A program made the position numbers and the translations under genes. Below, in pieces: positions 14,240 through 32,388 of a stretch of 64,000 nucleotides of DNA. Under the pieces are notes generated by a model. It saw only the letters and a list, made by a program, of their open reading frames with translations. It made no database searches and was not told where the DNA came from. This stretch comes from Thioalbus denitrificans (GTDB taxonomy: Bacteria > Pseudomonadota > Gammaproteobacteria > DSM-26407): assembly GCF_003337735.1 (NCBI RefSeq), contig NZ_QPJY01000002.1:62001-126000 (forward strand), written 5' to 3'. Positions within the stretch are counted from its first letter, which is position 1, and each line of letters begins with the position of its first letter.

Positions 14240-15726
14240 GGGCCTGTCACCCCCGGACGGCGGTCGGCGCGGGACTTCCGGTAGCTCCAGGCGAACACAC
14301 CCACCAGCATCAGGCCCAGGGTCAGGCTGATGGGGCGGGTGATGAAGGCCGGACCGTAGGCCTGCAGCGAGATGTGCAGGTAGGTCTCCAGTATGGGGCC
14401 GAGGATGAAGCCGAGCACCAATGCCGGGCGGGAGTAGTTGAACCGCCGCATCAGCAGGCCCAGGGCGCCGAACAGGAACACGAACAGGACATCGACGCCG
14501 CTGTTCCCGGTTGCGAAGGCGCCCACGACCACCAGCACCAGGAGAGCGGGGGCCAGGAACTGGCCGCGGATGGAGGCCAGCTTCGCCACGCCCGCGGCCA
14601 GCGGCACCATCAGCAGCGCGGAGACCAGGTTGGTCACGGCGAGGATGATCGCCAGGGCCGTCGCCATGTCCAGGTGCGTGACGAGAAAGTCGGGGCCGGG
14701 TTCGATGCCGAGGATCAGGAATCCGCCGAGCAGGAGGGCCATGGCGGCGCTGCCCGGGATGCCGAGGGCGAGGGTGGGCACCAGCGAGCCGCCCTCCTTG
14801 GCGTTGTTGCTGGCCTCCGGGGCGATGACCCCGTCGATATCGCCCGCCTCCCCGGCAGCATCCCGATCCCGCCGGCCGCGGGCCGCGGCATAGGCCAGGT
14901 AGGGCGCGGTCTCTCCACCGACGCCGGGGACGATGCCCACCAGGACCCCGATGCCGACGGAGCGCAGGAAGGTCCAGGGCCGCTCCAGGACCGCGGCCGC
15001 GCCGCGGGCGAGGTCCCGCCAGCGCAGTGCGGTTCCGGCCGCCGCCGGTCGGCGGCCGGCGCCTGCCAGGCGGACGATTTCCGGGATGGCGAACAGGCCC
15101 AGCACCAGGGGCACCAGCCGGATTCCGTCCAGCAGATAGTCGCTCTCCATCCAGAAGCGCGGCACACCGGTGATGCGCTGGTAGCCGAAGGTGGCCAGGA
15201 ACAGGCCCAGGCCGGCGGCGACCAGCCCCTTCAGCGGTTCGCCCTGATCGAGCAGGGCCACGCTGGCGATACCCACCAGGGCGAGCAGGAAGATCTCCGG
15301 GGCGCCGAAGGCCAGCACCACCGGCTGCAGCAGGGGCAGCAGCAGCACCAGGGCCAGGGCGCTCAGCAGCCCGCCCAGGGCCGAGGCGGTCAGCGCGGCG
15401 CCCACCGCGTACAGGCCGCGTCCCTGGCGGTGGAGGGCGAAGCCGTCCCTGACCGTGGCGGCGTTGGCCGGCGCTCCCGGAATGCCCAGGAGAATGGCGG
15501 TGACGGAGCCGCCCGTGTAGACCGCCGCATGGGCCGCCAGCAGGAAGCCGACACCGGTCAGGGGATCCAGGCCGTAGATGAACGGCAGCAGGATGGCCAG
15601 CGTGGACAGGCCGCTCAGGCCTGGCAGCACCCCGCACACCAGGCCGATGGAGAGCCCTGCGAGGGCCGCCAGGAGCGTGGGGCCATGGGCGGCCAGGCTC
15701 AGGGCTGAGGAGATGACGTCCGGCAT
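14236..15726 (-). CDS. tctA: Tripartite tricarboxylate transporter large permease TctA
   Basis: The 496-residue channel subunit of a TTT-family importer, an integral membrane protein with about 12 helices. Family signatures are present: an N-terminal GLVCGVLPGLSGLSTLAILLP loop, YTGGSVTAILLGIPGAPANAAT, a second GIVPGVGGETAPYLAY loop, and the EASNNAKEGGSLVPTLALGI box. The two PGxxG loops are the pseudo-symmetric substrate-binding elements. It lies between tctC (90 bp upstream) and tctB (4-bp overlap), giving the order CAB. Confidence 0.95.
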   Translation of the reverse strand: MPDVISSALSLAAHGPTLLAALAGLSIGLVCGVLPGLSGLSTLAILLPFIYGLDPLTGVGFLLAAHAAVYTGGSVTAILLGIPGAPANAATVRDGFALHRQGRGLYAVGAALTASALGGLLSALALVLLLPLLQPVVLAFGAPEIFLLALVGIASVALLDQGEPLKGLVAAGLGLFLATFGYQRITGVPRFWMESDYLLDGIRLVPLVLGLFAIPEIVRLAGAGRRPAAAGTALRWRDLARGAAAVLERPWTFLRSVGIGVLVGIVPGVGGETAPYLAYAAARGRRDRDAAGEAGDIDGVIAPEASNNAKEGGSLVPTLALGIPGSAAMALLLGGFLILGIEPGPDFLVTHLDMATALAIILAVTNLVSALLMVPLAAGVAKLASIRGQFLAPALLVLVVVGAFATGNSGVDVLFVFLFGALGLLMRRFNYSRPALVLGFILGPILETYLHISLQAYGPAFITRPISLTLGLMLVGVFAWSYRKSRADRRPGVTGP

Positions 15727-15816
15727 GGGAAGGCAGTCGTGCCGCGGCGGTCTATTCGAGGCCCATGACGGCCCGGTGGCGGTTGCCGCCCCTGGGGCAG
15801 CATGTGGCCGGAGGTC

Positions 15817-16866
15817 TCACCGGTAGTATTTCTCCAGCAGCACGTGGCGCACCTGGACCAGCCGTTCGCCCTCCAGCGCCCCGATGGTGCCGGTCACCAG
15901 TTCCGCGAGGGTGTCCGGCCCGGCGGGATCGATGCCGAAGCCCTTGGCCGACGCTTCAGCGACGAAAGCCGGATCGGCGAGTATCCCGCCGAGGGTCCCG
16001 GCGAGGTAGGCCACCCGGTCCGCGGGGGTTCCGGGCGTGGTGAGGAGCGCACGTCCGGTGCGGGCCATGCGGGCGCGGAAGTCGATCCACCAGGCCTGTT
16101 CCGCGGACAGCTCCACCGCCTCGAACAGGGTGGGGAGATCGGGGAACAGGGGCGAGCGGTCCCGATCCAGCACCGCAATGGGCACCAGCTGTCCGCCACG
16201 GGCATATTTGAGCGCGGAGCGGTCAGAGGTCACGATGCCGTCCACCTCGCCCCGCATCGCCGCCAGTGCCGCCTCCTTCGAGCCCTTGTAGCCGATGATG
16301 ATTTCCGCCTCGAGCCCGAGCGCCTCGGAGAGGCAGGCGGCGGTATCGGCGAGGGCGTCGGCCTTGCCGCCGCCGGACCACTTGACCGGTTCCCCTGCGG
16401 CGCGCAGCCCGGCCAGATTCCTGAGGGGGGATCGACCGCTCAGCATGACCACGCTCGGTTCGGTGCTAACCCGCGCCAGCCAGGGGACCTGCCCGAGGTC
16501 GTAGCGGGCCCCCTCGAGCTCCAGCAGCTGCGCCAGGGCGGCGCCCGGGCCGTTCACCAGCATCAGGGTCAGCCCGTCGGGCGCGGAACGGTAGACCTGG
16601 CTGAGGGCGACCAGCCCGCCGCCGCCCGGCCGGTTCTCCACCACCACCGTGGCGCCGGTGCGCCGTTCGATCCACGGCGCCAGCAGCCGGGCGAGGGTGT
16701 CGTAGCCCCCACCCGGGCCGTAGCCCACCACCAGCCGTACCACCTGGCCACGGAAGAACTCCGCCGCGGCGCCATCCTCCGCGCCGGCGCTTGTCGACAG
16801 TGGCAGGCACAGGAGGACAGCCAGGATTCCCCCGAACCCCATCCCGCGGATGTTCCAGTCCGACAT
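15817..16866 (-). CDS. tctC: Periplasmic tricarboxylate-binding receptor TctC
   Basis: The 349-residue extracytoplasmic solute receptor of the Tct system (Bug/TctC family). A signal peptide is seen in the first 29 residues (hydrophobic FGGILAVLLCLPLS, cleavage after AGA). The mature part shows the typical beginning VVRLVVGYGPGGGYDTLARLLAP and VVENRPGGGG, then the second-domain LIVG-like IIIGYKGSKEAALAAMRGEVDG and the terminal FPDLPTLFEAV. A GTG-initiated frame runs further upstream, but the ATG at 16866 has a GAGG site and starts the signal peptide. The ligand, probably a carboxylate, is not determined. The 294 bp upstream probably holds the promoter. Confidence 0.92.
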   Translation of the reverse strand: MSDWNIRGMGFGGILAVLLCLPLSTSAGAEDGAAAEFFRGQVVRLVVGYGPGGGYDTLARLLAPWIERRTGATVVVENRPGGGGLVALSQVYRSAPDGLTLMLVNGPGAALAQLLELEGARYDLGQVPWLARVSTEPSVVMLSGRSPLRNLAGLRAAGEPVKWSGGGKADALADTAACLSEALGLEAEIIIGYKGSKEAALAAMRGEVDGIVTSDRSALKYARGGQLVPIAVLDRDRSPLFPDLPTLFEAVELSAEQAWWIDFRARMARTGRALLTTPGTPADRVAYLAGTLGGILADPAFVAEASAKGFGIDPAGPDTLAELVTGTIGALEGERLVQVRHVLLEKYYR

Positions 16867-17160
16867 CGGTAGCCTCGCTTGTCTGGTGCTGATGGCCCCA
16901 CCCGTGAATCGCACCGGTCTGCGACTGCGGGAAGGAGTCCGGATTGTCCCGGGCACTATAATTTGTCTGGGTCGCGGGAGTAAAACCAGAGCTGCGGGCG
17001 ACCCCCGGGATCGGCCCGATGGGGGGCCGGAGGCGGGATGGTGCAAAGGCTGCTGCGGGGTGGACGGGGCCGCCTGCAACCAGGGCGGCGATGCCAGGGG
17101 CGGCGACTGACCGACCGGCGTCGGGAGTCCATCCGGTCCGGGCCGGCGTCCCGGCAACCC

Positions 17161-17673
17161 TCACACCCCGCCGCTGTGAACGGTTTCGTAGTAGAGCTTC
17201 TCCAGCTCCGCCTTGTGGCGGGTCTCCTCCTCGGCAAGAAACTCGAACAGCTCGCGCACGGGGCCGGGCTCCACGCTCCCGGCCAGGCTCCGGTACTGCT
17301 CCATGGCCGCCTGTTCGCGGCCGAGGGCGTACTGGAGGATGGCCTGGTCGTCGGGCTCCGCGCCCAACTCGGGGACCTGGATGCAGTCGGAGAAGCGGGT
17401 GTCCGAGGCGGGTGTCTCCACCCGCGCGCGCAGCTGCCCGGCGATGTCGCCGCGGGCGGCGAGATCGCTGAACAGGTCATGGTGGCGCGCCTCCTCCTCG
17501 GCCAGTTCCTCCACCAGGTAGCGGATGCGCTTGCTCACCCGCGGGATCAGCCCGGTGTAGAAGTCCCGCGCGCTGGCCTCGAAGGAGGCCGCCACCTCCA
17601 GGATCTCCCCCAGGGTCTTCCTGGCGCGGATGCGATCAATCCCGTGCACCCCGCCCTCGCCGTGTTCGCTCAC
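17161..17673 (-). CDS. Ferritin-like diiron protein, last gene of the MBS-like operon
   Basis: A 170-residue four-helix protein of the ferritin-like/rubrerythrin type. Glutamate and histidine ligands are visible in helix pairs: EILEVAASFEASARDFY, EELAEEEARHHDLF (ExxxH), QAAMEQYRSLAG and EFLAEEETRHKAELE (ExxRH). These give a diiron site. There is no rubredoxin domain. It starts at GTG 17673, overlapping the stop of the NuoI-GltD fusion gene by 4 bp (GTGA), so it is translationally coupled to the complex. In known MBS operons no such subunit occurs, as far as I know. A role in peroxide or oxygen removal near the iron-sulfur module is a guess. Confidence 0.85.
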   Translation of the reverse strand: MSEHGEGGVHGIDRIRARKTLGEILEVAASFEASARDFYTGLIPRVSKRIRYLVEELAEEEARHHDLFSDLAARGDIAGQLRARVETPASDTRFSDCIQVPELGAEPDDQAILQYALGREQAAMEQYRSLAGSVEPGPVRELFEFLAEEETRHKAELEKLYYETVHSGGV

Positions 17674-19502
17674 TGCACGCTCTCCCGTTGTTCCAGCCAG
17701 GCATGGATGCCGGCCGCGACCCGGTGGCCGTCGGCCACGGCGTGAACCACGTCGGGGCCGTTCACCATGTCGCCCGCGGCCCACAGCCAGGACTCGCTGG
17801 TGCGCCCGTCGGCGTCCACCCTGAGGCGCCCGCGGTGCCACTCCAGTCGCTCGGTGAGCGCCTCGCCCAGCAGCGCCGTGTCGGCCACCTGGCCGATGGC
17901 CTCGACCACCATCTCCGCCTCGTGCAGGCGCTCGTCGGATTCGTCGTAGATCGGCGCGAAGCGCCCCTGGGCGTCGAAGATGGACATCACCCGCCAGCTG
18001 CGCAGCCCCACCAGGTTGCCGGCCCCGTCCACCACGCACTCCCGCGGCCCGCGGGCATCGAGAATCTCGATCTCCTCCTCGGCCGCCTCCAGCACTTCGC
18101 TGGCGTCCGCCAGGAAGTGGCTGCGCGCCTCCAGCGCGGTGACGGTGACCCGCGCCGCGCCGTACTCCCGGCGCTGCAGGCGGGCCAGGGTACGGGCGAT
18201 GTCCATGGCCACGTTGCCGCCGCCGATGACCACCGCGCTGCGCGGGGTGCCGAACGCCTCCCCGGCGGTGGCCTGGCGCAGCAGGGTCACCGCCTTGCGC
18301 ACCTGGGGATGATCCGAGTTGGGAATACGGGTGGAGCGGCCGAACTGCAGCCCCAGGGCCAGCACCACGGCATCGAAGTCGCGCTGCAGCTCCTCCAGGG
18401 TGATGTCCTTTCCCACCCAGGTGCTGCAGCGGATATCCACCCCCACGGAGCGGATCACGTCGATATCCTGGTCCAGCCGGGCGTAGGGCAGGCGGTACTC
18501 GGGGATGCCGTAGCGGGGCATGCCGCCGGGCTCCGGCAGCCCCTCGAACACGGTCACCGCGTGGCCCAGTTTCGCCAGGTCGAAGGCGGCGGTGAGGCCG
18601 GCCGGTCCGGAGCCCACGATGGCCACGCGGCGCCCGCTCGGCGTGGCGACCCGCCCTTCGGCGGCGATGGCCTTCACCCGCTCGGGGGGCAGGGCGTCCA
18701 TGGCGTAGCGCTTGAGCCAGCGGATGGCGATGGGTTCGCCGCGGTGGCCGATGGAGCAGGCCTCCTCGCAGCGGTGGGTGCAGACCCGCCCGCAGACATG
18801 GGCGAAGGGGTTGGTCCGGTAGATCCAGCGCACCGCGTCCTCGACGCGTCCCTCCCAGATGGCACGGATGTACTCCGGCGCGTGCATGTGGGTGGGGCAG
18901 GCGTCGAAGCACATGCCGCACTGGACGCAGCGGGAGGCCTCCAGCAGGGCCTGCTGATCGTCGTAGCCGGCGACGATCTCGTGGAAGTTGTCGCCGCGGG
19001 CGGAGGGCTCGAGCTCGCCCATGGCCTGGCGCTGCAGGTCCACCAGGTCCGAATCGGCGCTCTTGCTCCAGCCGTGGCCGTAGTACCGGCCGTGCATCCC
19101 GTTGGGGTCGGGCAGGACGAAGTAGCTGTCGAGCTCCGCATCGGTGCAGGTGTGCACGTACTCCCGCGACAGGGCCAGGGAGGCGGTGGGGCAGATGTCC
19201 ACGCACAGGCCGCACCAGCAGCAGCGGCCGTAGTCGATGGCCGGGCGCTGGTCGCGGATCCCCTGCGCCGGGTCCGCCGGCAGCCCGGGGATGCGCACCA
19301 TGGTGATGGCGGCGTTGTCGCACACTTTCTGGCAGGTGCCGCAGCCGATGCACTTCTCCCAGTCGTTGAGGTGGAAGCCGCGGTAGTTGGCCGAGGCCAG
19401 CCGCGGCTCAAGCGGCTCGGTCACCGGCGGGCGGGCGAAGAACTGCAGGGCCTTGAGCGGGTTGAGCAGACTGCCCTTGTCCTTGTAGGGGATGTCGGCC
19501 AT
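17670..19502 (-). CDS. Fusion of NuoI-like ferredoxin with GltD/NfnB-type NAD(P)H oxidoreductase
   Basis: A 610-residue electron-input subunit. Residues 45-110 are a NuoI-like 2[4Fe-4S] ferredoxin with C51, C54, C57, C61 and C94, C97, C100, C104. Residues 190-250 are the N-terminal cluster domain of glutamate-synthase beta chains (C192, C195, C198, C202 and C237, C241, C245, C249). From 291 follows the two-dinucleotide-fold part: FAD loop G297SGPAG302, EPGGMPRYGIPEYRL, and the NAD(P)H loop VVIGGGNVAMD. The end LWAAGDMVNGP is the FAD-closing motif. It takes the place of NuoI in the operon and should pass electrons between NAD(P)H and the NuoB-like subunit. The direction of flow and the cofactor are inferred. 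Confidence 0.9.
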   Translation of the reverse strand: MADIPYKDKGSLLNPLKALQFFARPPVTEPLEPRLASANYRGFHLNDWEKCIGCGTCQKVCDNAAITMVRIPGLPADPAQGIRDQRPAIDYGRCCWCGLCVDICPTASLALSREYVHTCTDAELDSYFVLPDPNGMHGRYYGHGWSKSADSDLVDLQRQAMGELEPSARGDNFHEIVAGYDDQQALLEASRCVQCGMCFDACPTHMHAPEYIRAIWEGRVEDAVRWIYRTNPFAHVCGRVCTHRCEEACSIGHRGEPIAIRWLKRYAMDALPPERVKAIAAEGRVATPSGRRVAIVGSGPAGLTAAFDLAKLGHAVTVFEGLPEPGGMPRYGIPEYRLPYARLDQDIDVIRSVGVDIRCSTWVGKDITLEELQRDFDAVVLALGLQFGRSTRIPNSDHPQVRKAVTLLRQATAGEAFGTPRSAVVIGGGNVAMDIARTLARLQRREYGAARVTVTALEARSHFLADASEVLEAAEEEIEILDARGPRECVVDGAGNLVGLRSWRVMSIFDAQGRFAPIYDESDERLHEAEMVVEAIGQVADTALLGEALTERLEWHRGRLRVDADGRTSESWLWAAGDMVNGPDVVHAVADGHRVAAGIHAWLEQRESVQ

Positions 19503-20644
19503 CAGCGGTCCACCTCCGGCGGGCAGGCGTCGAGGGAGAACATGATCTGGGCGATGTCCTCCAGCCGCGCACGGGCGGTCAGGTTCTCCAGCACCTGCAC
19601 CGCGTGCATGGCGGAGGGGCCGCGCACGTGGACCCGGTAGGGCTTGTCGCCGCCGGTGGAGACCACGTAGTAGGCGAGCTCGCCCTTGGAGGACTCCACC
19701 CGGGTGTAGACCTCGCCGGCGGGCAGGTTCCAGGCCAGCGGATTGGGAATCAGGGCGCGGATGGGGCCGCCGACGTGGGGGAGCCGCTCCACCACCTGGC
19801 GCACGATGCGGATGCTCTGCACCAGCTCCTGGCGCCGCACCAGGGTGCGCGCCCAGGCGTCACCCGCCTGCTCGGTGGGGATGTCGAACTCCAGCTGGTC
19901 GTAGACCAGGTAGGGGTCGTCGCGGCGCACGTCGAAGGCCAGCCCGGTGGCGCGCAGGTTGGGGCCCGTGACCCCCCACTCCAGGGCCTGCTCCTGGCTC
20001 ATGGCGCCGATGCCCCGGGCCCGCTGCACGAACACCTGGTTGGTGAAGAACAGGTTGTCGTAGTCGGGCAGGCGCGACTCGATGTAGTCCAGCGTCCGGG
20101 TGACCCGCTCCAGGTAGCCGGCGGGAATGTCGCGGCGCACGCCGCCGGGGATGTTGTAGATGTGGTAGACGCGCCCGCCGCTCAGCTCCTCGAAGAGATC
20201 GAGCACCTGGTCGCGGTCGGCCACGCCCCAGTACATGTTGCTGTACATGCCGGTGGTGGCCGCGTGGCCGCCGAAGGTGAACAGGTGGGCGGCTATGCGG
20301 GAGAGCTCCAGCTGCAGCACCCGGATCCACTGGGCGCGCTCCGGCACCGTGATCCCGCCGAGCTCCTCCACGGCCAGGGAGTAGCACACCTCCATGGGCA
20401 CCGGGTCGGGCACGCAGATGCGCGGCACCAGGGCGATGTTCTGAATCCACAGCCGCCCCTCCATCAGCTTCTCGAAGCCGCGGTGCAGGTAGCCGCCGTC
20501 GGCGCGGGCGGAGACCACCTGGTCGCCGTTGAGCTTCACCTTCAGCGCGTAGTTGCCCTCGATGCCCGGGTGGTTGGGGCCGAAGAAGAGCTCGAACTCG
20601 TTGCTGGGCGGATGGTTGACCGCCTCGTAGTTCTCGGGCCTCAT
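19502..20644 (-). CDS. NuoD/MbsL-like large (catalytic) subunit lacking a NiFe site
   Basis: A 380-residue homologue of complex I NuoD and the large subunits of group 4 [NiFe] hydrogenases. The start shows FFGPNHPGIEGNYALKVKLNGD and the conserved DGGYLHRGFEKLMEG loop. In hydrogenases the nickel is held by two CxxC pairs. Here the first is C77-V-P-D80 (in RICVPDP) and the second is C374-P-P-E377 near the C-terminal end, so each pair keeps one Cys and has an acidic residue for the other. A [NiFe] site is thus unlikely, and unlike NuoD one Cys remains in each. This resembles sulfur-reducing MBS/Mbx rather than a hydrogenase or complex I. It overlaps the NuoC-like gene by 4 bp. Confidence 0.9.
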   Translation of the reverse strand: MRPENYEAVNHPPSNEFELFFGPNHPGIEGNYALKVKLNGDQVVSARADGGYLHRGFEKLMEGRLWIQNIALVPRICVPDPVPMEVCYSLAVEELGGITVPERAQWIRVLQLELSRIAAHLFTFGGHAATTGMYSNMYWGVADRDQVLDLFEELSGGRVYHIYNIPGGVRRDIPAGYLERVTRTLDYIESRLPDYDNLFFTNQVFVQRARGIGAMSQEQALEWGVTGPNLRATGLAFDVRRDDPYLVYDQLEFDIPTEQAGDAWARTLVRRQELVQSIRIVRQVVERLPHVGGPIRALIPNPLAWNLPAGEVYTRVESSKGELAYYVVSTGGDKPYRVHVRGPSAMHAVQVLENLTARARLEDIAQIMFSLDACPPEVDR

Positions 20645-21198
20645 CGGCGCACATCCTCCGGCCGGGTGGTGATGCCGCCGCCCTGGGCCTCGATCTCCTT
20701 CAGCCAGTCGGGGTGGTAGGCCTGCCAGTTGAAGTGGTCCATGACCCACGCCTCGCCGTCGAAGTCCTTGCGCATGGGGGGCGGGCCCTCCCACTCGGTG
20801 AGGATGAATTTCCCCATGTCGGGGCTGCCCTCGAAGTAGAGGCCGAACATCTCGTGGATGTCGCGCTCGAAGAAGGCCGCCGGCTTGAACAGGTCGTAGA
20901 CCGAGAGGTAGACGCCGGGGTCGCGGGGCAGGCGGATGTGGGCCATCACCAGCACCCGGGTCTCGTAGGACCAGAGGTGGTAGACCAGCTCGAACTCCTC
21001 CTGCTCCATCCAGTCAACGCAGGTGATGGCCGAGAGGTGCACGTAGCCGGCGCGGCCCTTGAGCAGCTCCAGCAGGGCGGGCAGGGTCTCGGCGGCGAGA
21101 TCCACCCGCACCCGGCGCGGTCCCTTGCGCCGGATGCGGATGCCCTCGATCTCCTGGAGCAGGAACTCCAGCTGGGGGGCGAGGCTCTGCCGGCTCAT
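20641..21198 (-). CDS. NuoC/MbsK-like 30-kDa subunit
   Basis: A 185-residue homologue of the complex I 30-kDa subunit. The core has YVHLSAITCVDWMEQEEFELVYHLWS, LPRDPGVYLSVYDLFKPAAFFERDIHEMFGLYFEGSPD, the well-conserved E-R-[DE]-x-x-[DE]-M-F-G box of the family. The C-terminal tail (WEGPPPMRKDF) packs on the large subunit in known structures. NuoC and NuoD are separate here, as in MBH/MBS. The gene overlaps both neighbours by 4 bp. Confidence 0.92.
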   Translation of the reverse strand: MSRQSLAPQLEFLLQEIEGIRIRRKGPRRVRVDLAAETLPALLELLKGRAGYVHLSAITCVDWMEQEEFELVYHLWSYETRVLVMAHIRLPRDPGVYLSVYDLFKPAAFFERDIHEMFGLYFEGSPDMGKFILTEWEGPPPMRKDFDGEAWVMDHFNWQAYHPDWLKEIEAQGGGITTRPEDVRR

Positions 21199-21926
21199 GG
21201 CTTGCGCTCCTGCCTGGATCCGAGGCGCATCTCCAGCGGCTGCAGCGGCACCTGGTGCTGTTGCAGCAGGGCGGTGTGCGGGCCGGTGGTCTCCGGGCCC
21301 GCGAGCCCGTAGTGGTCCGCTTCGCCGATGACGTCGGTGGGGGTCTGCCAGCGCTCGCCGAAGAGCTGCTGCTGGTTGCCCAGGTAGTGGTCGTAGCGGC
21401 GGTAGTAGTCCTTCCAGTTGTCCGCCTTTCCGGTACGGATGTTCTCCATCAGCTGGCGCATGCCGGTGATGACCGCCTCGGGGCGGGGCATGCAGCCGGC
21501 GATGTAGAGATCCACCGGCAGGTACTCGTTCAGGACCTTGGCGGTGGCGTAGCTCTGCCAGTACATGCCGCCGTTCACCGTGCAGGAGCAGATGCCGATC
21601 ACGTACTTCGGCCCGCCCATCTGCTCGTAGGTGAGGATGATGCGCTTCAGGGTCTTGATGGAGACATAGCCGGTCACCAGCAGGATGTCCGCCTGGCGCG
21701 GCGTCACCATGGGCTGGATGCCGAGCCGCTCCATGTCGAAGCGCGAGGTCATGGCCGGCGGCAGCTCGATGGCGCCGCAGCCGGTGCAGTAGTGGAGCAT
21801 GAACAGGGAGCGGGAACGGCAGAAGGCCTTCAGCTCGTCGAACACACGGGTGAACAGGCCCTCCGACTTCGGATCGCCGCCCGCGTCGCCCTCGGCGTGA
21901 ATGGGGATCTGCTTCAAGTCACTCAT
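21195..21926 (-). CDS. NuoB/MbsJ-like small subunit with one [4Fe-4S] cluster
   Basis: A 243-residue electron-transferring subunit. Cluster ligands are C47 and C50 (HYCTGC), C115 (CTVNGGMYW) and C145 (GCMPRPE). The CxxC spacing at 47/50 is that of group 4 hydrogenases and MBS, whereas complex I NuoB has a tandem CC, so this is a key indicator of the complex type. The PRPEAV segment is the expected C-terminal loop. The protein is longer at its C terminus (about 70 residues, NWKDYYRRYDHYLGNQQQLF onward). The ATG at 21926 has GGAGG upstream and a 17-bp gap to the NuoH-like gene, the only real gap in this half of the operon. Confidence 0.93.
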   Translation of the reverse strand: MSDLKQIPIHAEGDAGGDPKSEGLFTRVFDELKAFCRSRSLFMLHYCTGCGAIELPPAMTSRFDMERLGIQPMVTPRQADILLVTGYVSIKTLKRIILTYEQMGGPKYVIGICSCTVNGGMYWQSYATAKVLNEYLPVDLYIAGCMPRPEAVITGMRQLMENIRTGKADNWKDYYRRYDHYLGNQQQLFGERWQTPTDVIGEADHYGLAGPETTGPHTALLQQHQVPLQPLEMRLGSRQERKP

Positions 21927-21943
21927 GGGAGTCCTCCATTCGC

Positions 21944-22843
21944 TCAGTGCATGATCAGCCACAGGCCCGCCAGGCCCAGCAGCACCGGCCACTTCCAGAT
22001 CATCTTCAGCAGATCCTCGGTGCGGTAGCGGGGGAACAGGAAGGCGATGCACATGGGGATGGCCACCACCGCAAAGGCTTTGACCAGGAAAGTGAGCCAG
22101 TTCTCCCCGCCGCCCAGGAACAGGCTCGCGTAGAGCACGCCCGCGGTGTAGAACTGGAAGGTCTGCATGACGAACAGGCCGCCCAGGAACTTGCCGCCCA
22201 TCTCCACCATGGGGCCGGTGGCGATCTCCGCCGGCGCCACGTAGATCTCGAAGGGCTGCTTGCCCAGCATGGCGTGCACCGAGAACAGCCCCGCCAGGGC
22301 CAGCAGCGGCATGGTGGCCGCGCCCCAGCCGCCGGGGCCGGCGGCCTGCTGCAGGGCGATGATGTCCGCCAGGTTGGTGGTGCCGTAGTGCCAGGCCACG
22401 CCGAAGATGACGATGACGAAGGGGATGTCGTAGGCGAGCATGGCGGTGAGCGCGCGGGCGATGCCGATGGAGCCGTTGGGGTTGGCGCACTGGCCCACCC
22501 CCAGGGCCAGCCCCAGGGAGGGAATCATCATCAGGTAGGCCAGGGTGATGAGGCCGCCCCGGTCGGCGAGCCCGTCCATCCCCGGTACCGGCAGCAGGGT
22601 CTCGGCGGCCACGTAGCCGCCCACCGCCATGACGATGCCGATGTCGTGGACGAGGCCGTGGGAGATCTGGGTCTGCTTGCCGTAGAGCTTGATGATGTCG
22701 TAGAGGGGCTGCAGCAGTGGCGGGCCCACGCGGCGCTGAATCCTCGCCGCGATCTTGCGCATCATCAGCACCATGAACAGCCCCACCACGAAGGCCACCA
22801 GGGGCATCAGGATCAGCTCGAGCGCCAGGTTCAGGGCATCCAT
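21944..22843 (-). CDS. NuoH/MbsM-like membrane subunit
   Basis: A 299-residue, eight-helix membrane protein homologous to NuoH, which links the soluble arm to the ion-pumping arm. Family marks are RIQRRVGPPLLQPLYDIIKLYGKQ near the N terminus, a loop GSIGIARALTAMLAYDIPF, and KQPFEIYVAPAEIATGPMVEMGGKF, the charged E-rich loop. The NuoH-like arginines/glutamates for ion coupling appear intact. It overlaps the preceding antiporter-like gene by one base (TGATG). Confidence 0.93.
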   Translation of the reverse strand: MDALNLALELILMPLVAFVVGLFMVLMMRKIAARIQRRVGPPLLQPLYDIIKLYGKQTQISHGLVHDIGIVMAVGGYVAAETLLPVPGMDGLADRGGLITLAYLMMIPSLGLALGVGQCANPNGSIGIARALTAMLAYDIPFVIVIFGVAWHYGTTNLADIIALQQAAGPGGWGAATMPLLALAGLFSVHAMLGKQPFEIYVAPAEIATGPMVEMGGKFLGGLFVMQTFQFYTAGVLYASLFLGGGENWLTFLVKAFAVVAIPMCIAFLFPRYRTEDLLKMIWKWPVLLGLAGLWLIMH

Positions 22844-24699
22844 CACAGTACCACCCAGGCCAGGCCCGCCACGGCCGTCATGAGGAGGAGGAACGCGGGC
22901 GCCTGCTGCCGGTAGACCCCCTGCATGGCCAGCGCCGCCAGGTCCACCGCCGAGACCAGCGCGGACTCCAGCCAGGTGAAGGCGTTGCGGTAGAGGGGGC
23001 CGATGCGGTGCATGAGGCCGGCGTAGAAGTTGTCGCTGTACTGGTAGCGCACGTCGGCGGAGAGGAAATGGCCGCCGGCGTAGTTGTCCAGCTGGTGCAC
23101 CCGCCGGCTGCGCCCGCCGCCGCCGTAGAAGAGCAGGGCGCCGACGCCGAAGCCGCCGAACAGCACCCCCACGATCCAGAGCATGTCCAGCCCGCCCTTG
23201 GCGGAGGCCACCCCGCCCAGGGTGTAGCGGAGCACCGGCAGCCCGAGCGCCGCCTGGGCGTCGGCCACCCAGCCCAGCACCAGCCCCGGCGCGGTCCCGG
23301 TGACGAAGACGATGGCGCACAGCGCCAGCATCGGGCCGGTCATGCTCCAGGGCGCCTCGCGGATATGCTCGTGCTCGCTGCGCAGCTGGCCGAGGAAGGT
23401 GTTGTGGATCAGCTTGTAGACGCTGAGGATGGTGCCCAGCGTGCCGATCACCGAGGCCACGAACAGCAGCGGCATGCCCTCGGTCATCAGCGAGCGGTAG
23501 ATGAGCCACTTGGAGACGAAGCCGTTCATGGGCGGCAGGCCGGCCAGGCCGATGATGCCCACCAGCATGGTGAGGAAGGAGAGCGGCATGCGCACCACCA
23601 GCCCGCCCAGGCGGTTGAGGTCGGCGGTGCCGGTGCGGTGGATGACCGCGTAGACGGAGAGGAACAGGGCCGCCTGGTAGGTGGCGTGGTTGAACACGTG
23701 CATCAGACCGCCGGCGCTGCCCATGGCGTCGCCCACCACCAGCCCCATGAGCATGTAGCCGCCCTGGCCGATGCCGTGCCAGGCCAGCAGGTAGCGGGCG
23801 TCGTTCTGCTTCAGCGCCGTGAAGGTGGGCAGCACGATGGTGAAGGCGGCCACCCACGCCAGCAGGTCGCGGACCCCGAACTGGCCCGGCAGGATCTGCA
23901 GCCCGTCGAGCCCCTCCAGGGTGACCAGCCGCGCCAGCACCAGGGCGATGGCGAACAGGCCCATGCGCGAGGAGATGGCGCCCAGGAAGGCGGTGCCGGG
24001 GCCCGGTGCCTCGGCGTAGGCCGGCGCCTGCCAGAGGTGGAAGGGCAGCAGCCCCATCTTCACCCCGAAGCCGCCCGTGAACAGCGCCACCAGCAGCCAC
24101 AGCCGTCCGGGCTCCAGGGCCGGCAGGCGCTCGGCGAGGAGCCCCAGGTCCAGGGTGCCGGTCCAGGCATAGGCCAGCACCGTGCCGCCGAGGACGGCCA
24201 TGGCCCCGCCCATGGCGTAGGTGACGTAGCGCAGGGCGGCGCGCACCGCCGCAGCGCCGCCCTGGGCCATGAGCAGGAAGCCGGCCCAGCTCACCAGCTC
24301 CCAGCCGATGAACAGCGACACCAGGTCGGTGCTGGCGAGCAGCAGGAGCATGGCCAGCACGTTGATCGCCAGCGCCCCGTGGAGCGCCCGCAGGCTGTGG
24401 CCCGCCTGCGTGTAGCGGCGGCCCCACTCGCCGGCCATGAACCAGGCGGAGGCGATGGCCGCACCCAGGGTGATGAGGGCGAAGAAGCGGCCGAAGGGGT
24501 CCAGGGACCAGGCGATGGTCTGGCCCAGCACCTGGAAGGTGGGGGAGGCGGCCGCGCTCCCGTCCATGGCGCCCAGGAGGGCGAGCTGCCCGGCGTAGAG
24601 CAGCGCGGCGAGCACGCCCGCGCCCGACCAGCGTCCCAGCAGCCAGGCGAGCGCCCCGGTGGCGAGGGAGAGCAGGAGCAGCAGATCCAGCAGGGTCAC
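22843..24699 (-). CDS. NuoL/MrpA-MrpD-like antiporter subunit (second pump)
   Basis: A 618-residue multispanning protein of the antiporter-like family (proton_antipo_M). Recognisable parts: STDLVSLFIGWELVSWAGFLL with the TM5 Glu, GFGVKMGLLPFHLWQAPAYAEAPGP with the TM7 Lys, HGIGQGGYMLMGL and LMHVFNHATYQAALFLSVYAV with TM8/TM10 His and LAGLPPMNGFVSKWLIY. It starts with GTG 24699 overlapping the MrpD-like gene by 4 bp. Together with that MrpD-like subunit it gives two pump modules, as in archaeal MBS (subunits H and H'). It lacks the long lateral helix of complex I NuoL. Confidence 0.92.
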   Translation of the reverse strand: MTLLDLLLLLSLATGALAWLLGRWSGAGVLAALLYAGQLALLGAMDGSAAASPTFQVLGQTIAWSLDPFGRFFALITLGAAIASAWFMAGEWGRRYTQAGHSLRALHGALAINVLAMLLLLASTDLVSLFIGWELVSWAGFLLMAQGGAAAVRAALRYVTYAMGGAMAVLGGTVLAYAWTGTLDLGLLAERLPALEPGRLWLLVALFTGGFGVKMGLLPFHLWQAPAYAEAPGPGTAFLGAISSRMGLFAIALVLARLVTLEGLDGLQILPGQFGVRDLLAWVAAFTIVLPTFTALKQNDARYLLAWHGIGQGGYMLMGLVVGDAMGSAGGLMHVFNHATYQAALFLSVYAVIHRTGTADLNRLGGLVVRMPLSFLTMLVGIIGLAGLPPMNGFVSKWLIYRSLMTEGMPLLFVASVIGTLGTILSVYKLIHNTFLGQLRSEHEHIREAPWSMTGPMLALCAIVFVTGTAPGLVLGWVADAQAALGLPVLRYTLGGVASAKGGLDMLWIVGVLFGGFGVGALLFYGGGGRSRRVHQLDNYAGGHFLSADVRYQYSDNFYAGLMHRIGPLYRNAFTWLESALVSAVDLAALAMQGVYRQQAPAFLLLMTAVAGLAWVVL

Positions 24700-26174
24700 G
24701 GCCGGGCCTCCGGGGCAGCGTTGAGGGTCAGGGTGCCGGGGCGCTCGATGGTGCGTACCGGCAGCACCCGGCCGAGATAGGCCGCGCGGTCGGCGGCCTG
24801 GGCGGCCATGTGGCCGAGGGCGTCGCCCAGCGGCCCGGCGCTCGCGCCGCCGAGGATCAGCACCAGCCCCAGCACGGCGGCGCCCGTCAGGGGGCCGGTG
24901 GCGTGGGGCGCGGTGGCGCCGTCCGCGTCGCGGGCGTAGAGCCGGCCCACCACCCGGAACAGGTAGCTGGCCTCCACCACGGTGGTGGCGAGGATCACCG
25001 CCGCGGCGGCCCACCAGAGCCCGCCCTCCTGGGCCGCCAGGCCGGAGAGCACCAGGAACTTGGCCCAGAAACCGGGCAGGGGCGGCACGCCGATGAGCGA
25101 GAGGGCGAACAGCACGAACAGCGCGCCGGCCAAGGGGCTGCGGCGGCCGGCCCCGGTGAGCGACTCCAGGCTGCCGCCCCAGCGCTCGGCGAGCAGGAAC
25201 AGCGCGGGCTTCGCCACCAGGTGGTGCAGCGCCACCGCCAGGCCGGCGACCAGGCCCGCCTCGCCGGGAACGGCGAAGGCCACGAAGACGATGCCGAGCT
25301 GGCCGATGGAGGACCAGGAGAGCAGCCGCGCCAGGTCGCGGGCGCGGTAGGCGGCCAGCTCGCCGCTGAGGATGCCGAGCGTGCCCAGCAGCAACAGCGC
25401 CGTGCGCGCCTCGTCGGTGGGGAAGACCAGCACCAGCAGGCGCACCAGCACCAGCACCGCCAGCTTGGAGACCAGCCCCGCCAGCAGGGCCGAGACCCGG
25501 CGCTCGGCCCCGGCGTAAACCTCCGGCACCCAGGCGTTCACGGGGAACAGCTCCGCCTTCACCCCGAGCCCCAGGAGCAGCAGCAGGAAGGCGGCGAGCC
25601 CCAGCGGGTCGTTCAGCAGGGTGGGGGCGAGCTCGCCCAGGTGGGCCAGGTTGAGCGTGCCGGTGCGGTGGTAGACGAGGGCGATGCCCACCAGCGCCAG
25701 CAGGGAGCCGAGGCTGCTCAGCACCAGGTAGCGGAAGGCCGCGGCGTAGGCGCGGCCGCTGCCGGCCCCGGCCGCCAGGCCATAGGAGGCCACCGCCACC
25801 AGTTCATAGAAGACGTAGATGTTGAACAGGTCACCCGACAGCGCCAGCCCCGAACAGCCGGCGGCCAGCAGCAGGGTGAGGGCGTGCTTGCGGCTGCCGG
25901 CCGCCTCGTTCCAGGGCCACAGCAGCAGGCAGCTGAAGGCCACGGCGAGCACGAACAGCAGCGCCACCCCGTCCACGTAGAAGAGGATGCCGAGGGGCGG
26001 GCGGAAGCCGCCGATGGCCACGGTGAAGGGCTCCACCTGCGCCCGCGGCCAGGCGCTGAAGGCGGTGGCCGCCACCAGCAGCAGGGTGGCGGGACCCACG
26101 ATGCGGCGCAACGGACCGGTCAGGGGCAGCAGGAAGGCGGCCAGCAGGGGCAGGGCCACGGCCAGGGCGATCAT
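24696..26174 (-). CDS. mrpD: MrpD/NuoN-like antiporter subunit
   Basis: A 492-residue membrane protein with about 14 helices of the Mrp D/NuoN type. Visible motifs are GDLFNIYVFYELVAVASYGL (TM5 Glu), LGLGVKAELFPVNAWVPEVYAGAERRVSALLAGLVSKLAV (TM7/TM8 Lys), WSSIGQLGIVFVAFAVP, and ALHHLVAKPALFLLAER. These charged residues line the ion path in structurally known relatives. The gene overlaps mrpC upstream by 4 bp. Whether Na+ or H+ is carried cannot be told from sequence. Confidence 0.92.
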   Translation of the reverse strand: MIALAVALPLLAAFLLPLTGPLRRIVGPATLLLVAATAFSAWPRAQVEPFTVAIGGFRPPLGILFYVDGVALLFVLAVAFSCLLLWPWNEAAGSRKHALTLLLAAGCSGLALSGDLFNIYVFYELVAVASYGLAAGAGSGRAYAAAFRYLVLSSLGSLLALVGIALVYHRTGTLNLAHLGELAPTLLNDPLGLAAFLLLLLGLGVKAELFPVNAWVPEVYAGAERRVSALLAGLVSKLAVLVLVRLLVLVFPTDEARTALLLLGTLGILSGELAAYRARDLARLLSWSSIGQLGIVFVAFAVPGEAGLVAGLAVALHHLVAKPALFLLAERWGGSLESLTGAGRRSPLAGALFVLFALSLIGVPPLPGFWAKFLVLSGLAAQEGGLWWAAAAVILATTVVEASYLFRVVGRLYARDADGATAPHATGPLTGAAVLGLVLILGGASAGPLGDALGHMAAQAADRAAYLGRVLPVRTIERPGTLTLNAAPEARP

Positions 26175-26638
26175 GGGCGCGCCTCCCGGGGCAGGGCGGC
26201 CGGCCGCGGCGGCGGCAGGGGCCTTTCACCGGCGGGGCGGTCCCGGCTGCCGGCGGGCGCGAGCCCGGCCGCGCCGTCGATCTCCTCCACCATCCGCGCG
26301 CGGATGAGCCGCAGGTCGAGGGTGCCGTAGGCCTGGCGCAGGCGGATGCCCAGCGCCAGGGCCAGCGCCTGCACGCCGACGCCGATGACGATGGCGGTGA
26401 GCACCAGGGCCTGGGGCACCGGGTCCACCATGGGGGCGCGGTCCGCGCCGGTGAGAATCGGCGCGACCGCGTCCCAGCGGAAACCGGTCAGCACCAGCAG
26501 CAGGTTGGCGCCGGCCTCGGCGATGGCCAGCGCCATGACCACCCGGAACAGGTGGCGGGCGAGCACCAGTCCGGCGATGCCGATCACCAGCAGGCCGATG
26601 GCGCCGAGGTAGAGGGTGAGGGTGGTGGCGTCGTTCAC
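26171..26638 (-). CDS. mrpC: MrpC/NuoK-like subunit
   Basis: A 155-residue protein: three membrane helices in the first 105 residues (LGAIGLLVIGIAGLVLA; VMALAIAEAGANLLLVLTGF with the helix-2 Glu; PVPQALVLTAIVIGVGVQAL), matching MrpC/NuoK. An unusual proline/arginine-rich cytoplasmic tail of about 45 residues follows. The gene has 4-bp overlaps on both sides. Confidence 0.92.
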   Translation of the reverse strand: MNDATTLTLYLGAIGLLVIGIAGLVLARHLFRVVMALAIAEAGANLLLVLTGFRWDAVAPILTGADRAPMVDPVPQALVLTAIVIGVGVQALALALGIRLRQAYGTLDLRLIRARMVEEIDGAAGLAPAGSRDRPAGERPLPPPRPAALPREARP

Positions 26639-27342
26639 CGGGGCGCCTCCCCGTCGGCTTCGGTCATGCGTACCAGCAGGCCGGTCAGCTCGGCGCCCAC
26701 CTTGAGCCCCACCGCCAGGTAGAGCAGCGGCAGGGTGCCGGCGGAGACCAGGCTGCCGAGGGTGCCGCGGCCCAGCAGCGGGGCGAGGAACTGGTGGTCC
26801 CAGGCGAGCGCCGCGAGCCCGGTGGCGATGAAGGCCGCGCCCGCCAGCCCCTCCACCCAGGCCAGCCGGCGGTGCTCCGGCGGCCGGCCCGGATCGGCCA
26901 GCACCGGCACCACGAAGGCCGCCGCCAGGATGACGCCGCCCTGGAAGCCGCCGCCCGGGGTGAGGTGGCCGTGGAGGATGATGTAGAGTCCCACCACCAG
27001 CAGCAGCGGGAACAGCAGGTCGGCGCCGGCACGGAGGATGAAGCCCGCCGGGGCGGCGCCGGCGCGGCGTTCGCCCGGCCGACCCAGCACCAGCCCGGCG
27101 GCCATGGCGGCGGCGAACAGGATGGAGAGCTCGCCCAGGGTATCGATGCCGCGGTAGGCCAGCACCACGGCGGTGACGAAGTTGGCCGCGCCCACCGTTC
27201 CGGCGGCGTCGCCCTGGATGGCCTCGCCCACGGTCATGGGCGGCGCGCCGAAGGGCAGCCCCGCCACCAGTACCGCGAGCAGGAAGGCGAAGCCGGCGGC
27301 GAACAGCAGCGGCCCGAGCGTGGTCACTCTAGCGGTCGGCAT
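26635..27342 (-). CDS. mrpB: Fused MbhE-like and MrpB/MbhF-like subunit
   Basis: A 235-residue protein joining two Mrp-type parts. Residues 1-90 match MbhE, the C-terminal segment of MrpA (TVGAANFVTAVVLAYRGIDTLGE). Residues 100-235 are MrpB (LFPLLLVVGLYIILHGHLTPGGGFQGGVILAAAF, the HxxPGGGFQGG signature). In most MBH/MBS operons these are two genes. The start overlaps the MbhD-like gene by 14 bp. It belongs to the Na+/H+ exchange unit of the complex. Confidence 0.9.
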   Translation of the reverse strand: MPTARVTTLGPLLFAAGFAFLLAVLVAGLPFGAPPMTVGEAIQGDAAGTVGAANFVTAVVLAYRGIDTLGELSILFAAAMAAGLVLGRPGERRAGAAPAGFILRAGADLLFPLLLVVGLYIILHGHLTPGGGFQGGVILAAAFVVPVLADPGRPPEHRRLAWVEGLAGAAFIATGLAALAWDHQFLAPLLGRGTLGSLVSAGTLPLLYLAVGLKVGAELTGLLVRMTEADGEAPR

Positions 27343-27601
27343 GATCCGTCTCCTCCTGCACCTCGAGCCGCCACAGACCGAGGCGCCTGAGCGCCAGCGC
27401 CAGCAGCAGGCTGCCGAGTCCGGCGCCCACCGCCGCCTCGGTCATGGCCACGTCCGGGGCCCGGAGCAGCACGAACAGCCCCGCCACCCCCAGGGAGACC
27501 ACCGACACCGAGGCCACGGCGCCGAGAAAGTTGGGCAGCAGCAGGGCGGCCACCGCGCTGGCCAGCATCACCACCACCATCAGGAGCACGATCCAGAACA
27601 T
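27329..27601 (-). CDS. MbhD-like subunit (DUF4040)
   Basis: A 90-residue protein with three helices, equivalent to the MbhD or DUF4040 portion of MrpA. The signature is VLLRAPDVAMTEAAVGAGLGS, with the conserved Asp/Glu pair in the helix. It starts one base after the stop of the mrpG-like gene and overlaps the next gene by 14 bp. Confidence 0.88.
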   Translation of the reverse strand: MFWIVLLMVVVMLASAVAALLLPNFLGAVASVSVVSLGVAGLFVLLRAPDVAMTEAAVGAGLGSLLLALALRRLGLWRLEVQEETDHADR

Positions 27602-27602
27602 C

Positions 27603-27908
27603 TCAGACCTCCCTGTCCGCAGGGTGGGACTGCCATGGCCGCACCCCCGCCAGGAACAGCGCCCGGGCGATGGTGGAGGAGCCCACGGGATTGGTGAGCA
27701 GCAGCAGCCCGCCGATGGCCGCCAGCTTGGCCCACCACTCGGGGTGGTGGAACCACACCCCCAGCAGTATGCACAGGGTGCCGAGGGTCACCGCCTTGGT
27801 CCCCGCCTGGATGCGGTTGTAGACATCGGGCATGCGGAACAGTCCCAGCGCGCCGAGGAAACAGAAGGCCGCTCCCAGCAGCAGGAACAGGTTGCCGGGC
27901 AGGCTCAT
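27603..27908 (-). CDS. mrpG: MrpG-like subunit
   Basis: A 101-residue, three-helix protein of the MnhG/MrpG family: GLFRMPDVYNRIQAGTKAVTLG is the family box, followed by a hydrophobic helix and LTNPVGSSTIARAL. It overlaps mrpF by 4 bp. Confidence 0.92.
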   Translation of the reverse strand: MSLPGNLFLLLGAAFCFLGALGLFRMPDVYNRIQAGTKAVTLGTLCILLGVWFHHPEWWAKLAAIGGLLLLTNPVGSSTIARALFLAGVRPWQSHPADREV

Positions 27909-28177
27909 GGGCGCGCACCTCCCTCGATGATGCGGGCCAGGGCCACCACCCCCACGAAGGCGAGGACGCCGTAGACCAGCGCCACGTCCAGGTACAGGGC
28001 GCTTTCCAGCACCAGGGAGAGCAGCACCAGCCCGGCGGTGGCGATGACCGCCAGGGTATCGGCGGCGACGATGCGGTCCGGGGCCTGCGGCCCCAGCACG
28101 AGCCGGGCGAGGCCCAGGAGCACGGCGCCGCCGAACAGCAGCAGGAGGGCAAGTTGCAGCCAGTCGGGCAGGTTCAT
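27905..28177 (-). CDS. mrpF: MrpF-like subunit
   Basis: A 90-residue protein with three helices and the MrpF signature LVLGPQAPDRIVAADTLAVI, with the Asp in helix 2. The ATG at 28177 overlaps the stop of mrpE by 4 bp (ATGA). Confidence 0.92.
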   Translation of the reverse strand: MNLPDWLQLALLLLFGGAVLLGLARLVLGPQAPDRIVAADTLAVIATAGLVLLSLVLESALYLDVALVYGVLAFVGVVALARIIEGGARP

Positions 28178-28716
28178 TCCAGGAATCCGCTCAGGTGACG
28201 TTCGAAGGGTTCCGCGATGGCCCGCGTGGCCGCTTCCACGTCGGCCCCGGCGGGCAGGCTGATCCAGTGCACCAGCAGGCGATCCTCCTCCACGTCCACG
28301 GTGAGGGTGCCGGGAGTGAGGGTGATGCTGTTGGCGAGCAGCAGGCGGCCCAGCTCGGAGCGCAGGCCGGTCCGGATCTGCACCACGCCGGGATGGATGG
28401 GCAGGGCGGGGGAGAGCACCCGGCGGGCCACGTCGAGATTGGCGCGCACGAGCGCGGCGGCAAAGACGCCCAGATAGGCCAGCAGGTGGAGGGGCGCCGC
28501 GGGGGTCAGGCGCAGCCCCGTGAGCAGCGTGATCCGGGGATGGGACAGGGTCGCCGCGGCGGCGGCCACCAGCAGTCCCGCTGCCAGTTCGGCCGGGGCC
28601 AGGCTGCCGGTGAGGAGCAGCCACAACAGGAAGGAGAGGGCGAACAGGCGCGCCGCGTTGTTCCATCCGGGTTTCGGCCCGGCTGCGGCCGGCGTCGTTT
28701 CTGTCTGCTGGTCCAT
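28174..28716 (-). CDS. mrpE: MrpE-like subunit, first gene of the MBS-like operon
   Basis: A 180-residue homologue of MrpE. Two N-terminal helices (FALSFLLWLLLTGS, then ELAAGLLVAAAAATL), followed by LLAYLGVFAAALVRANLDVARRVLSP and the soluble ITLTPGTLTVDVEEDRLLVHWI fold characteristic of the family. It opens a 14-gene transcript (28716 down to 17161) in which nearly all genes overlap by 1-14 bp. The promoter should lie in the 449-bp region upstream, where I find no clear operator. Confidence 0.92.
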   Translation of the reverse strand: MDQQTETTPAAAGPKPGWNNAARLFALSFLLWLLLTGSLAPAELAAGLLVAAAAATLSHPRITLLTGLRLTPAAPLHLLAYLGVFAAALVRANLDVARRVLSPALPIHPGVVQIRTGLRSELGRLLLANSITLTPGTLTVDVEEDRLLVHWISLPAGADVEAATRAIAEPFERHLSGFLE

Positions 28717-29414: not shown

Positions 29415-30371
29415 TCATGACGCCTCCAGGTAGTGGAAGCTGAACAGCCCCCGACTGTCGAGCCAGAGATCCAGGGGCTGGAATCCGGCGCGCCGGGCCA
29501 GCATCCGGAACTCCTCGGGGTGGTACTTGTAGGAGGACTCGGTGTGGATGGTTTCACCGGCACGGAACGGGAACAGGCTGTCGTTCACCCGCACCTCCTG
29601 CGCCACCCGGCTCACCAGGTGCATCTCGATGCGCCCCGGCTCCGGGTTGTAGAAGGCGTGATGGTGGAAGTTGTCGGGATCCAGATCGGTCTCCAGCTCG
29701 CGGCGGATCCGGTGCAGCAGGTTGAGATTGAACGCGGCGGTCACCCCCGCGGCATCGTTGTAGGCGGCGTTGAGCAGGCCGGTGTCCTTCTTCGTGTCGA
29801 TGCCGATCAGCAGTCCGCCCGCGTCACCCACCGCCTCGCGCACGGTGGCGAGGAACGCCACCGCCGCCTCCGGCTCGAAGTTGCCCAGGCTCGAGCCCGG
29901 ATAGAAGGCCACCCGCCGCCCCTCCGGCAGGCCCGCGGGCAGCTCCAGGCCGTGGGAGAAATCGGCCCGGGCGGCGTGGACCCGCAGCCAGGGGAAGTCC
30001 CGCGACAGCCGCTCGGCCGAGGCCTGGAGGTAGCTGCCGGAGATGTCCAGGGGGACGAACACCGACGGGCGGATATGCTCGAGCAGCAACCGGACCTTGG
30101 CCCCGTTCCCCGCGCCCGGCTCGATGAGCACGCAGCCGCTCCCGGTGCGGGCGGCGATCCTGGCGGCGCGGGTCTGGAGTATCTCCCGCTCCGCCGCCGG
30201 CAGGTAGTACTCCGGCTGGGCGCAGATGGCGTCGAACAGCTCCGAGCCGCGGCGATCATAGAAAAACTTTGGCGGTATCGCCTTCGGGCTCCGTCCCAGC
30301 CCCTCCAGCACGGCCGTTTCCAGCTCGGAGACGGCCATCGGCAGTTCGCTGTATTGCAGGCGTGCGCTCAT
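29415..30371 (-). CDS. egtD: L-histidine N-alpha-methyltransferase (ergothioneine biosynthesis)
   Basis: A 318-residue EgtD, which trimethylates histidine to hercynine using S-adenosylmethionine. Family marks: IPPKFFYDRRGSELFDAI at the start, LIEPGAGNGAKVRLLL (SAM loop), VPLDISGSYL, FYPGSSLGNFEP, LLIGIDTKKD, AYNDAAGVTAAFNLNLLHRI, and the C-terminal HTESSYKYHPEEF. Tyr and Asn residues that hold the histidine substrate lie in these boxes. The length is normal. It is coupled to egtB by a 4-bp overlap. Confidence 0.96.
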   Translation of the reverse strand: MSARLQYSELPMAVSELETAVLEGLGRSPKAIPPKFFYDRRGSELFDAICAQPEYYLPAAEREILQTRAARIAARTGSGCVLIEPGAGNGAKVRLLLEHIRPSVFVPLDISGSYLQASAERLSRDFPWLRVHAARADFSHGLELPAGLPEGRRVAFYPGSSLGNFEPEAAVAFLATVREAVGDAGGLLIGIDTKKDTGLLNAAYNDAAGVTAAFNLNLLHRIRRELETDLDPDNFHHHAFYNPEPGRIEMHLVSRVAQEVRVNDSLFPFRAGETIHTESSYKYHPEEFRMLARRAGFQPLDLWLDSRGLFSFHYLEAS

Positions 30372-32237: not shown

Positions 32238-32388
32238 GTTCACCTCCAGTTTGCTTGTGGGTGGGTCGCGGACCTGATGGGGCTATTCTTGTCCGCCGGG
32301 CGGCGGCTGTAAACCGGGCGGGAGCAAAACCGCTTCCATCCCTCCGGACCGTCGAGCCCAGGCGCTGGACGGCGGTCCGGACGGGGCG

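Follow-up and report, generated by a model that had tools for sequence, protein, structure and literature searches.

Gene Content of the Operon

The DNA analyzed here, a stretch of 64,000 nucleotides from Thioalbus denitrificans (contig NZ_QPJY01000002.1; hereafter the window), contains an operon of 14 genes on the minus strand, running from position 28716 to 17161, in which neighboring genes overlap or nearly abut. An initial annotation, made from the letters alone, had proposed that these genes encode a membrane-bound sulfane reductase (MBS, formerly Mbx) rather than respiratory complex I. All 14 genes were present at the coordinates it gave, and the identities and order it had assigned were each backed by the Pfam, NCBIfam, and PDB searches with which every gene was assigned. 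In MBS nomenclature, the operon reads MbsA-B-C-D-E-G-H-H'-M-J-K-L-N, which is 13 of 13 subunits in the archaeal order, followed by a gene for a rubrerythrin-like protein.

The operon opened with an MrpE/MbsA-like subunit (28174..28716; PF01899 MNHE, E=1e-39, and NCBIfam MrpE models), an MrpF/MbsB-like subunit (27905..28177; PF04066, E=8e-17), and an MrpG/MbsC-like subunit (27603..27908; PF03334, E=3e-25). The last had MbsC of the Pyrococcus furiosus MBS as its top PDB match (6u8y_C, 9.6e-20), and its P74 corresponded to P83 of MbsC, a conserved, helix-breaking residue. These were followed by an MbhD/MbsD-like subunit (27329..27601; PF13244, E=2.6e-17), an MbhE-MnhB fusion resembling MbsE (26635..27342; PF04039, E=2.6e-24, with a weak PF20501 match under its cut-off), and an MrpC/MbsG-like, or NuoK-like, subunit (26171..26638; PF00420, E=8.6e-19). 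The two antiporter subunits of the initial annotation were both recovered, one MrpD/MbsH-like (24696..26174; top NCBIfam matches PRK08377 and MrpD families) and one MbsH'-like, of 618 aa (22843..24699; top PDB match 6u8y_X, the MBS MbsH', 1.6e-46). Residues 3-605 of the latter aligned nearly end to end with residues 4-605 of MbsH', and the C-terminal helices of MbsH' were present. The remaining genes encoded a NuoH/MbsM-like membrane anchor (21944..22843; PF00146, E=1e-49), a NuoB/MbsJ-like small subunit with a short CTGC loop (21195..21926), a NuoC/MbsK-like subunit (20641..21198; PF00329, E=2.4e-27), a NuoD/MbsL-like large subunit (19502..20644), a fusion of an MbsN/NuoI-type 2x[4Fe-4S] domain with a GltD/NfnB-type FAD/NAD(P)H module (17670..19502; PRK13984, Fer4, Fer4_20, and Pyr_redox_2), and the rubrerythrin/ferritin-like protein (17161..17673; PF02915, E=1.1e-13).

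Affiliation with Membrane-Bound Sulfane Reductase

For four subunits (L, J, H', and C), the P. furiosus MBS gave the top structural match. The NuoD-like protein matched MbsL (6u8y_L) at 4.7e-120, compared with 5.8e-77 for Nqo4 of Thermus thermophilus, and the NuoB-like protein matched MbsJ (6u8y_J) at 6.7e-64, in an ungapped alignment of 168 residues, compared with 7e-32 in the parallel comparison. Residues were then read against the key positions set out by the authors of the MBS structure (PMC7684303). From each CxxC pair of the hydrogenases, the NuoD-like protein kept a single cysteine, as the initial annotation had noted; the two that remain correspond to MbsL C85 and C385, and each NiFe-binding pair was one cysteine short of what a group 4 [NiFe] hydrogenase (MBH, Ech, or Hyf type) carries. 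Both Nqo4 quinone-headgroup residues were replaced (H38 by E, Y87 by V), and the NuoB-like protein carried CTGC, the CxxC seen in the initial annotation, in place of the tandem CC of complex I. Its loop was of MBS length, shorter than that of MBH, and the equivalents of C25, C28, C93, and C123 were all kept. Bacteroidota members had lost the C25 equivalent (GTGC), leaving three cysteines, which agrees with the report that C25 is no cluster ligand (PMC7684303). Most gammaproteobacterial proteins of the clade termed A below had an extra cysteine two residues ahead of the C93-equivalent cluster ligand (ICSCT, versus FGSCT or MGSCT); this cysteine was absent from Beggiatoaceae and from other phyla.

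Phylogenies of the NuoD- and NuoB-like proteins, the check proposed with the initial annotation, gave a clear answer for the first and a qualified one for the second. In the NuoD-like tree, the window protein, P. furiosus MbsL, and all bacterial relatives formed one clade (support 100/99), outside complex I and outside MBH/HycE. Within it, spirochaetes were the sister group of gammaproteobacterial clade A (98/97); another gammaproteobacterial group, clade B, sat with Fermentibacterota. When the long hydrogenase branches were removed, the MBS-type NuoB-like sequences likewise formed one clade (100/99.7). In the full NuoB-like tree, complex I joined clade B, inside the MBS type, on a long branch (83/90); the approximately unbiased (AU) test did not reject monophyly of the MBS type (p-AU 0.318). 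The literal reading of that tree, with complex I nested within MBS, was dropped, as long branches meet at that point and nothing in the AU test compels it.

The structure matches, the active-site residues, and the NuoD-like tree together confirmed, at the level of sequence, that the operon encodes an MBS (Mbx)-type complex, closer to MBS than to complex I. It appeared very improbable that the operon encodes a quinone oxidoreductase of the complex I kind, fed by NADH (or ferredoxin) through an unusual input subunit. PRK06075 (NuoD) and PRK06411 (NuoB) did exceed their NCBIfam cut-offs, and MBS itself has a quinone-site-like chamber (PMC7684303), but the replaced quinone-site His and Tyr, the CTGC motif, and the placement of the NuoD-like protein outside complex I all speak against quinone reduction, and a separate complex I, NuoE/F included, is encoded elsewhere in the genome (locus L001).

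The Electron-Input Fusion and the Rubrerythrin-like Protein

The electron-input subunit departed from the archaeal MBS, in which MbsN stands alone and is fed by ferredoxin. The initial annotation had described the thirteenth gene product as a NuoI-type fusion, which held for its N-terminal NuoI/MbsN 2x[4Fe-4S] domain; the remainder of the 610 aa protein was refined to a GltD/NfnB-type FAD/NAD(P)H module. PRK13984 matched over the full length at 784 bits, under its curated cut-off of 946, and the P. furiosus MbsN chain (208 aa) matched the NuoI part only. NuoI and GltD formed a single open frame in every locus holding both. The NAD(P)H-type input had been called unusual, yet in the bacterial loci recovered such a module was regularly fused to MbsN.

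The cofactor motif differed between lineages. Where the second strand of the fold that binds NAD(P)H (the second Rossmann fold) ends, A456-L457-E458 replaced the YRR found in relatives. None of the 38 scorable clade A proteins had YRR (ALE in 36, ALQ in 1, AME in 1), and all four spirochaete fusions read SLE, whereas NfnL/NfnB and all 28 proteins from other phyla kept YRR. Enzyme assays of DsrL, a member of the same protein family, showed that YRR enzymes use NADP(H) and that those without YRR prefer or require NAD(H) (PMC7596348). From the loss of YRR in clade A and spirochaetes, and by analogy with DsrL, we infer that the partner of the fusion would be NADH and not NADPH. One locus (L031, on G217:C43) held a hybrid operon, in which clade-B-type MbsL and MbsJ stood with a clade-A-type NuoI-GltD fusion (GltD part 57% identical, AME); judging by these sequences, this suggests module exchange between lineages.

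The MBS genes of Beggiatoaceae were scattered over several contigs, and 6 further fusion proteins from this family read ALE. On one Thiotrichaceae contig (L068, 9403-10761), an RnfC-like gene (RnfC_N plus Complex1_51K) lay directly after MbsL, and similar proteins occurred in the other Beggiatoaceae genomes. Replacement of the NuoI-GltD fusion by an RnfC-like protein in this family was considered and dropped, as a whole-genome search placed the fusion elsewhere in 8 of 8 such genomes.

The rubrerythrin-like protein had both diiron half-motifs (E...EExxH twice), and the motifs and the position of the gene after the fusion were conserved in about 40 loci. In a spirochaete (L072), a homologous rubrerythrin-like domain formed the C-terminus of the fusion protein itself (E 1.1e-10), which suggests that the separate protein is physically associated with the fusion. 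It probably shields the clusters from O2 or peroxide, drawing electrons from the same flavoprotein.

Proposed Reaction and Energetics

The complex is probably a reversible, NAD(H)-linked NADH:sulfane-sulfur oxidoreductase coupled to H+/Na+ transport. NADH would bind the GltD-like half of the fusion; from FAD, electrons would run along the fusion's own [4Fe-4S] clusters and those of the NuoB-like subunit as far as the proximal cluster, held in MBS by three Cys ligands. There, a sulfane S-S bond, of polysulfide or of a protein or thiol persulfide, would be reduced, or formed in the reverse reaction. Coupling of this redox step to the movement of H+ and, by way of the MrpEFG/B module, of Na+ would run through the NuoH-like anchor and both antiporter-like subunits. 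Under anoxia, NADH could be drained onto stored sulfur; with an energized membrane, the gradient could drive NAD+ reduction with sulfide. By textbook values, the span between NADH and polysulfide is about 50 mV at standard potentials, or about 10 kJ per 2 electrons, and reverse operation would need no more than a modest ion gradient.

It is possible, if doubtful, that the complex works in the forward direction only, in an anaerobic sulfur respiration that oxidizes NADH with stored or external zero-valent sulfur once O2 and nitrate are gone, as the Pyrococcus MBS does with ferredoxin. This is the known direction of the MBS reaction (PMC7684303), mbxA of Thermotoga maritima is upregulated 4.4-fold with S0 (PMC9431562), the complex occurs in sulfur-storing Chromatiaceae, Beggiatoaceae, and symbionts, and the sister clade is spirochaetal. 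However, replacing ferredoxin or NADPH by NADH leaves just about 10 kJ per 2 electrons, and forward pumping would stall against an ordinary ion-motive force if more than a few ions were coupled.

Distribution and Association with Sulfur Oxidation

Loci were collected by a contig scan, from which the best 80 were kept, with further matches beyond these. Among the matches listed were tubeworm and lucinid symbionts, Sedimenticola, Thiohalocapsa, Lamprocystis, Beggiatoaceae, and Parasulfuritortus, with P. cantonensis LSR1 as a named strain carrying the operon; more distant ones came from Spirochaetota, Bacteroidota, WOR-3, Thermotogota, Calditrichota, and others. Gene order, the second check proposed with the initial annotation, stayed intact as one block in most of roughly 90 loci, so the arrangement is not a chance one. 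The rarity claimed for such a complex in a gammaproteobacterium did not hold: it is common among sulfur oxidizers, and a paper on the Riftia symbiont names it once (PMC11636981).

In an even sample of 274 gammaproteobacterial genomes, the complex was present in 12, each from a different family. Two further candidates (G121 and G235, at 39-40% identity) were true complex I by residues and tree placement and were removed from the positives. All 12 positive genomes had the fusion and dsrA, which occurred in 93 of the 274 overall (hypergeometric p 1.4e-6, kinship not corrected), and RuBisCO was found in 10. It was not found in G049 (88% complete) or G263 (97%). The T. denitrificans genome itself carries RuBisCO and dsrABEFHCMKL in the oxidative arrangement (dsrA match; gene order and sequence in L117), so by gene content the host is an autotrophic sulfur oxidizer of the reverse dissimilatory sulfite reductase (rDsr) type.

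These associations bear on the opposite one-way reading, in which the complex would be an ion-motive-force-driven sulfide:NAD+ oxidoreductase only, supplying NADH for CO2 fixation and bypassing the quinone pool. In its favor are the dsr genes of every carrier in the sample and the RuBisCO of most, the modest uphill step, the oxidative direction that accompanies the NAD-type motif in DsrL (PMC7596348), and co-expression with the reductive tricarboxylic acid (rTCA) cycle in the Riftia symbiont Endoriftia, where putative Mrp-Mbx genes are first neighbors of rTCA genes, as are sulfur-globule genes (PMC11636981). Against it stand the two positive genomes in which RuBisCO was not found, the NAD-type motif in spirochaetes without evident autotrophy, and the failure to find a biochemical precedent for reverse MBS in the literature searched. 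An exclusively reverse role is on balance unlikely.

A pump of the MBS kind that acts on an organic disulfide, or that passes electrons between NADH and ferredoxin, and for which reducing sulfur is incidental, seemed improbable. The MBS mechanism could also act on organic disulfides (PMC7684303), and the gene cluster adjoining the operon makes ergothioneine. However, the egt genes were not conserved beside the cassette in the flanks of 31 loci, and the strict dsr association points to inorganic sulfur.

We favor reversible use of the NADH:sulfane-sulfur oxidoreductase, in which either direction may dominate. More specifically, and tentatively, chemolithoautotrophic sulfur oxidizers may run MBS backwards, with the gradient driving electrons from sulfide or polysulfide straight to NAD+ by way of the fused NADH module, as reverse electron transport without quinone; the same complex could reduce stored sulfur when the membrane is de-energized. 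Several observations weigh against the model of a reversible oxidoreductase. About 80 dsr-positive genomes of the class sample had no such complex. Two clade B gammaproteobacteria with rDsr and dsrA (L029 and L030, in genomes G232 and G263) had a YRR-type fusion, so the cofactor switch is not strictly tied to sulfur oxidation, and the NAD-type motif also occurs in spirochaetes. The extra cysteine of most gammaproteobacterial NuoB-like proteins might alter the proximal cluster. Finally, 10 kJ per 2 electrons is little for forward pumping by a complex with two antiporter-like subunits, and the ion stoichiometry of MBS is given as unknown (PMC7684303).

Relation to Described Complexes

With the P. 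furiosus MBS (6u8y), the operon shares the 13 subunit types and their order, the C85 and C385 equivalents, the lack of quinone residues, the short MbsJ loop with C28, C93, and C123, the two antiporter-like subunits, and the MrpEFG/B sodium module. It differs in its MbsN-GltD/NfnB-like fusion with an NAD-type motif, where archaeal MbsN is about 208 aa and ferredoxin-fed, in the rubrerythrin-like gene after the fusion, in the rDsr autotrophic host, and in the extra cysteine before the C93 equivalent in most members. The Thermotogota Mbx (T. maritima Mbx; L102 and L108) has the same operon order, and NuoI-GltD is fused in the Thermotogota loci analyzed, but with the NADP-type YRR and no rubrerythrin-like gene after the fusion; its MbsL is about 52-54% identical. 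Respiratory complex I (NuoA-N) shares the homologous core of NuoB, C, D, H, and I and the antiporter-like subunits, whereas this operon lacks NuoEFG, the tandem CC, and the quinone-site His/Tyr, and its NuoD-like protein falls outside the complex I clade. Like the fused module, DsrL of rDsr sulfur oxidizers is a GltD/NfnB-type flavoprotein for NAD(P)H, and in it the absence of YRR accompanies NAD(H) use (PMC7596348), but it partners rDsrAB and is not fused to a membrane complex.

The complex type is thus already known from archaea and Thermotogota, and a putative Mrp-Mbx was named in the Riftia paper (PMC11636981). There it was named once, from annotation, with MBX listed as of unknown function and direction, and no subunit, cofactor, or phylogenetic analysis of Mrp-Mbx was found in the text. 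The likeness to Endoriftia, itself a tubeworm symbiont, was drawn through sequences of other tubeworm symbionts (L037, L039, and L040), which carry the operon with MbsL 85-86% identical. What appears new here is the predicted NAD-type input (ALE or SLE for YRR) of the gammaproteobacterial/spirochaete branch, as in NAD-specific DsrL. Neither this branch nor the residue-level match nor the association with dsr was found described in the literature searched, most subscription papers lying outside the search. The complex would represent an ancient sulfur pump of archaeal type whose electron-input module has been exchanged, its cofactor switch paralleling one proven in DsrL. The operon is a specific, testable candidate for producing NADH from sulfide in sulfur oxidizers and for reducing stored sulfur under anoxia.

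Flanking Genes and Other Loci

No flanking genes were conserved among the gammaproteobacterial loci, as no family recurred beyond a few of the 31. Genes immediately beyond the downstream end of the operon (14236-17157), which share its strand, resembled a TctA/TctC-type tricarboxylate transporter by eye; an NCBIfam search of 14236-15726 gave no match. Elsewhere in the genome (L003; G000:C9:149688-150185), a HycE-like large subunit of an energy-converting-hydrogenase-related (Ehr) complex was accompanied by a small subunit, and the NiFe Cys positions examined were Ser. Just upstream of the operon, also on the minus strand, were the ergothioneine genes egtD (29415-30371) and egtB (30368-31633), and positions 31950-32243 encoded an encapsulin-associated ferritin-like cargo protein (TIGR04535, 141 bits).

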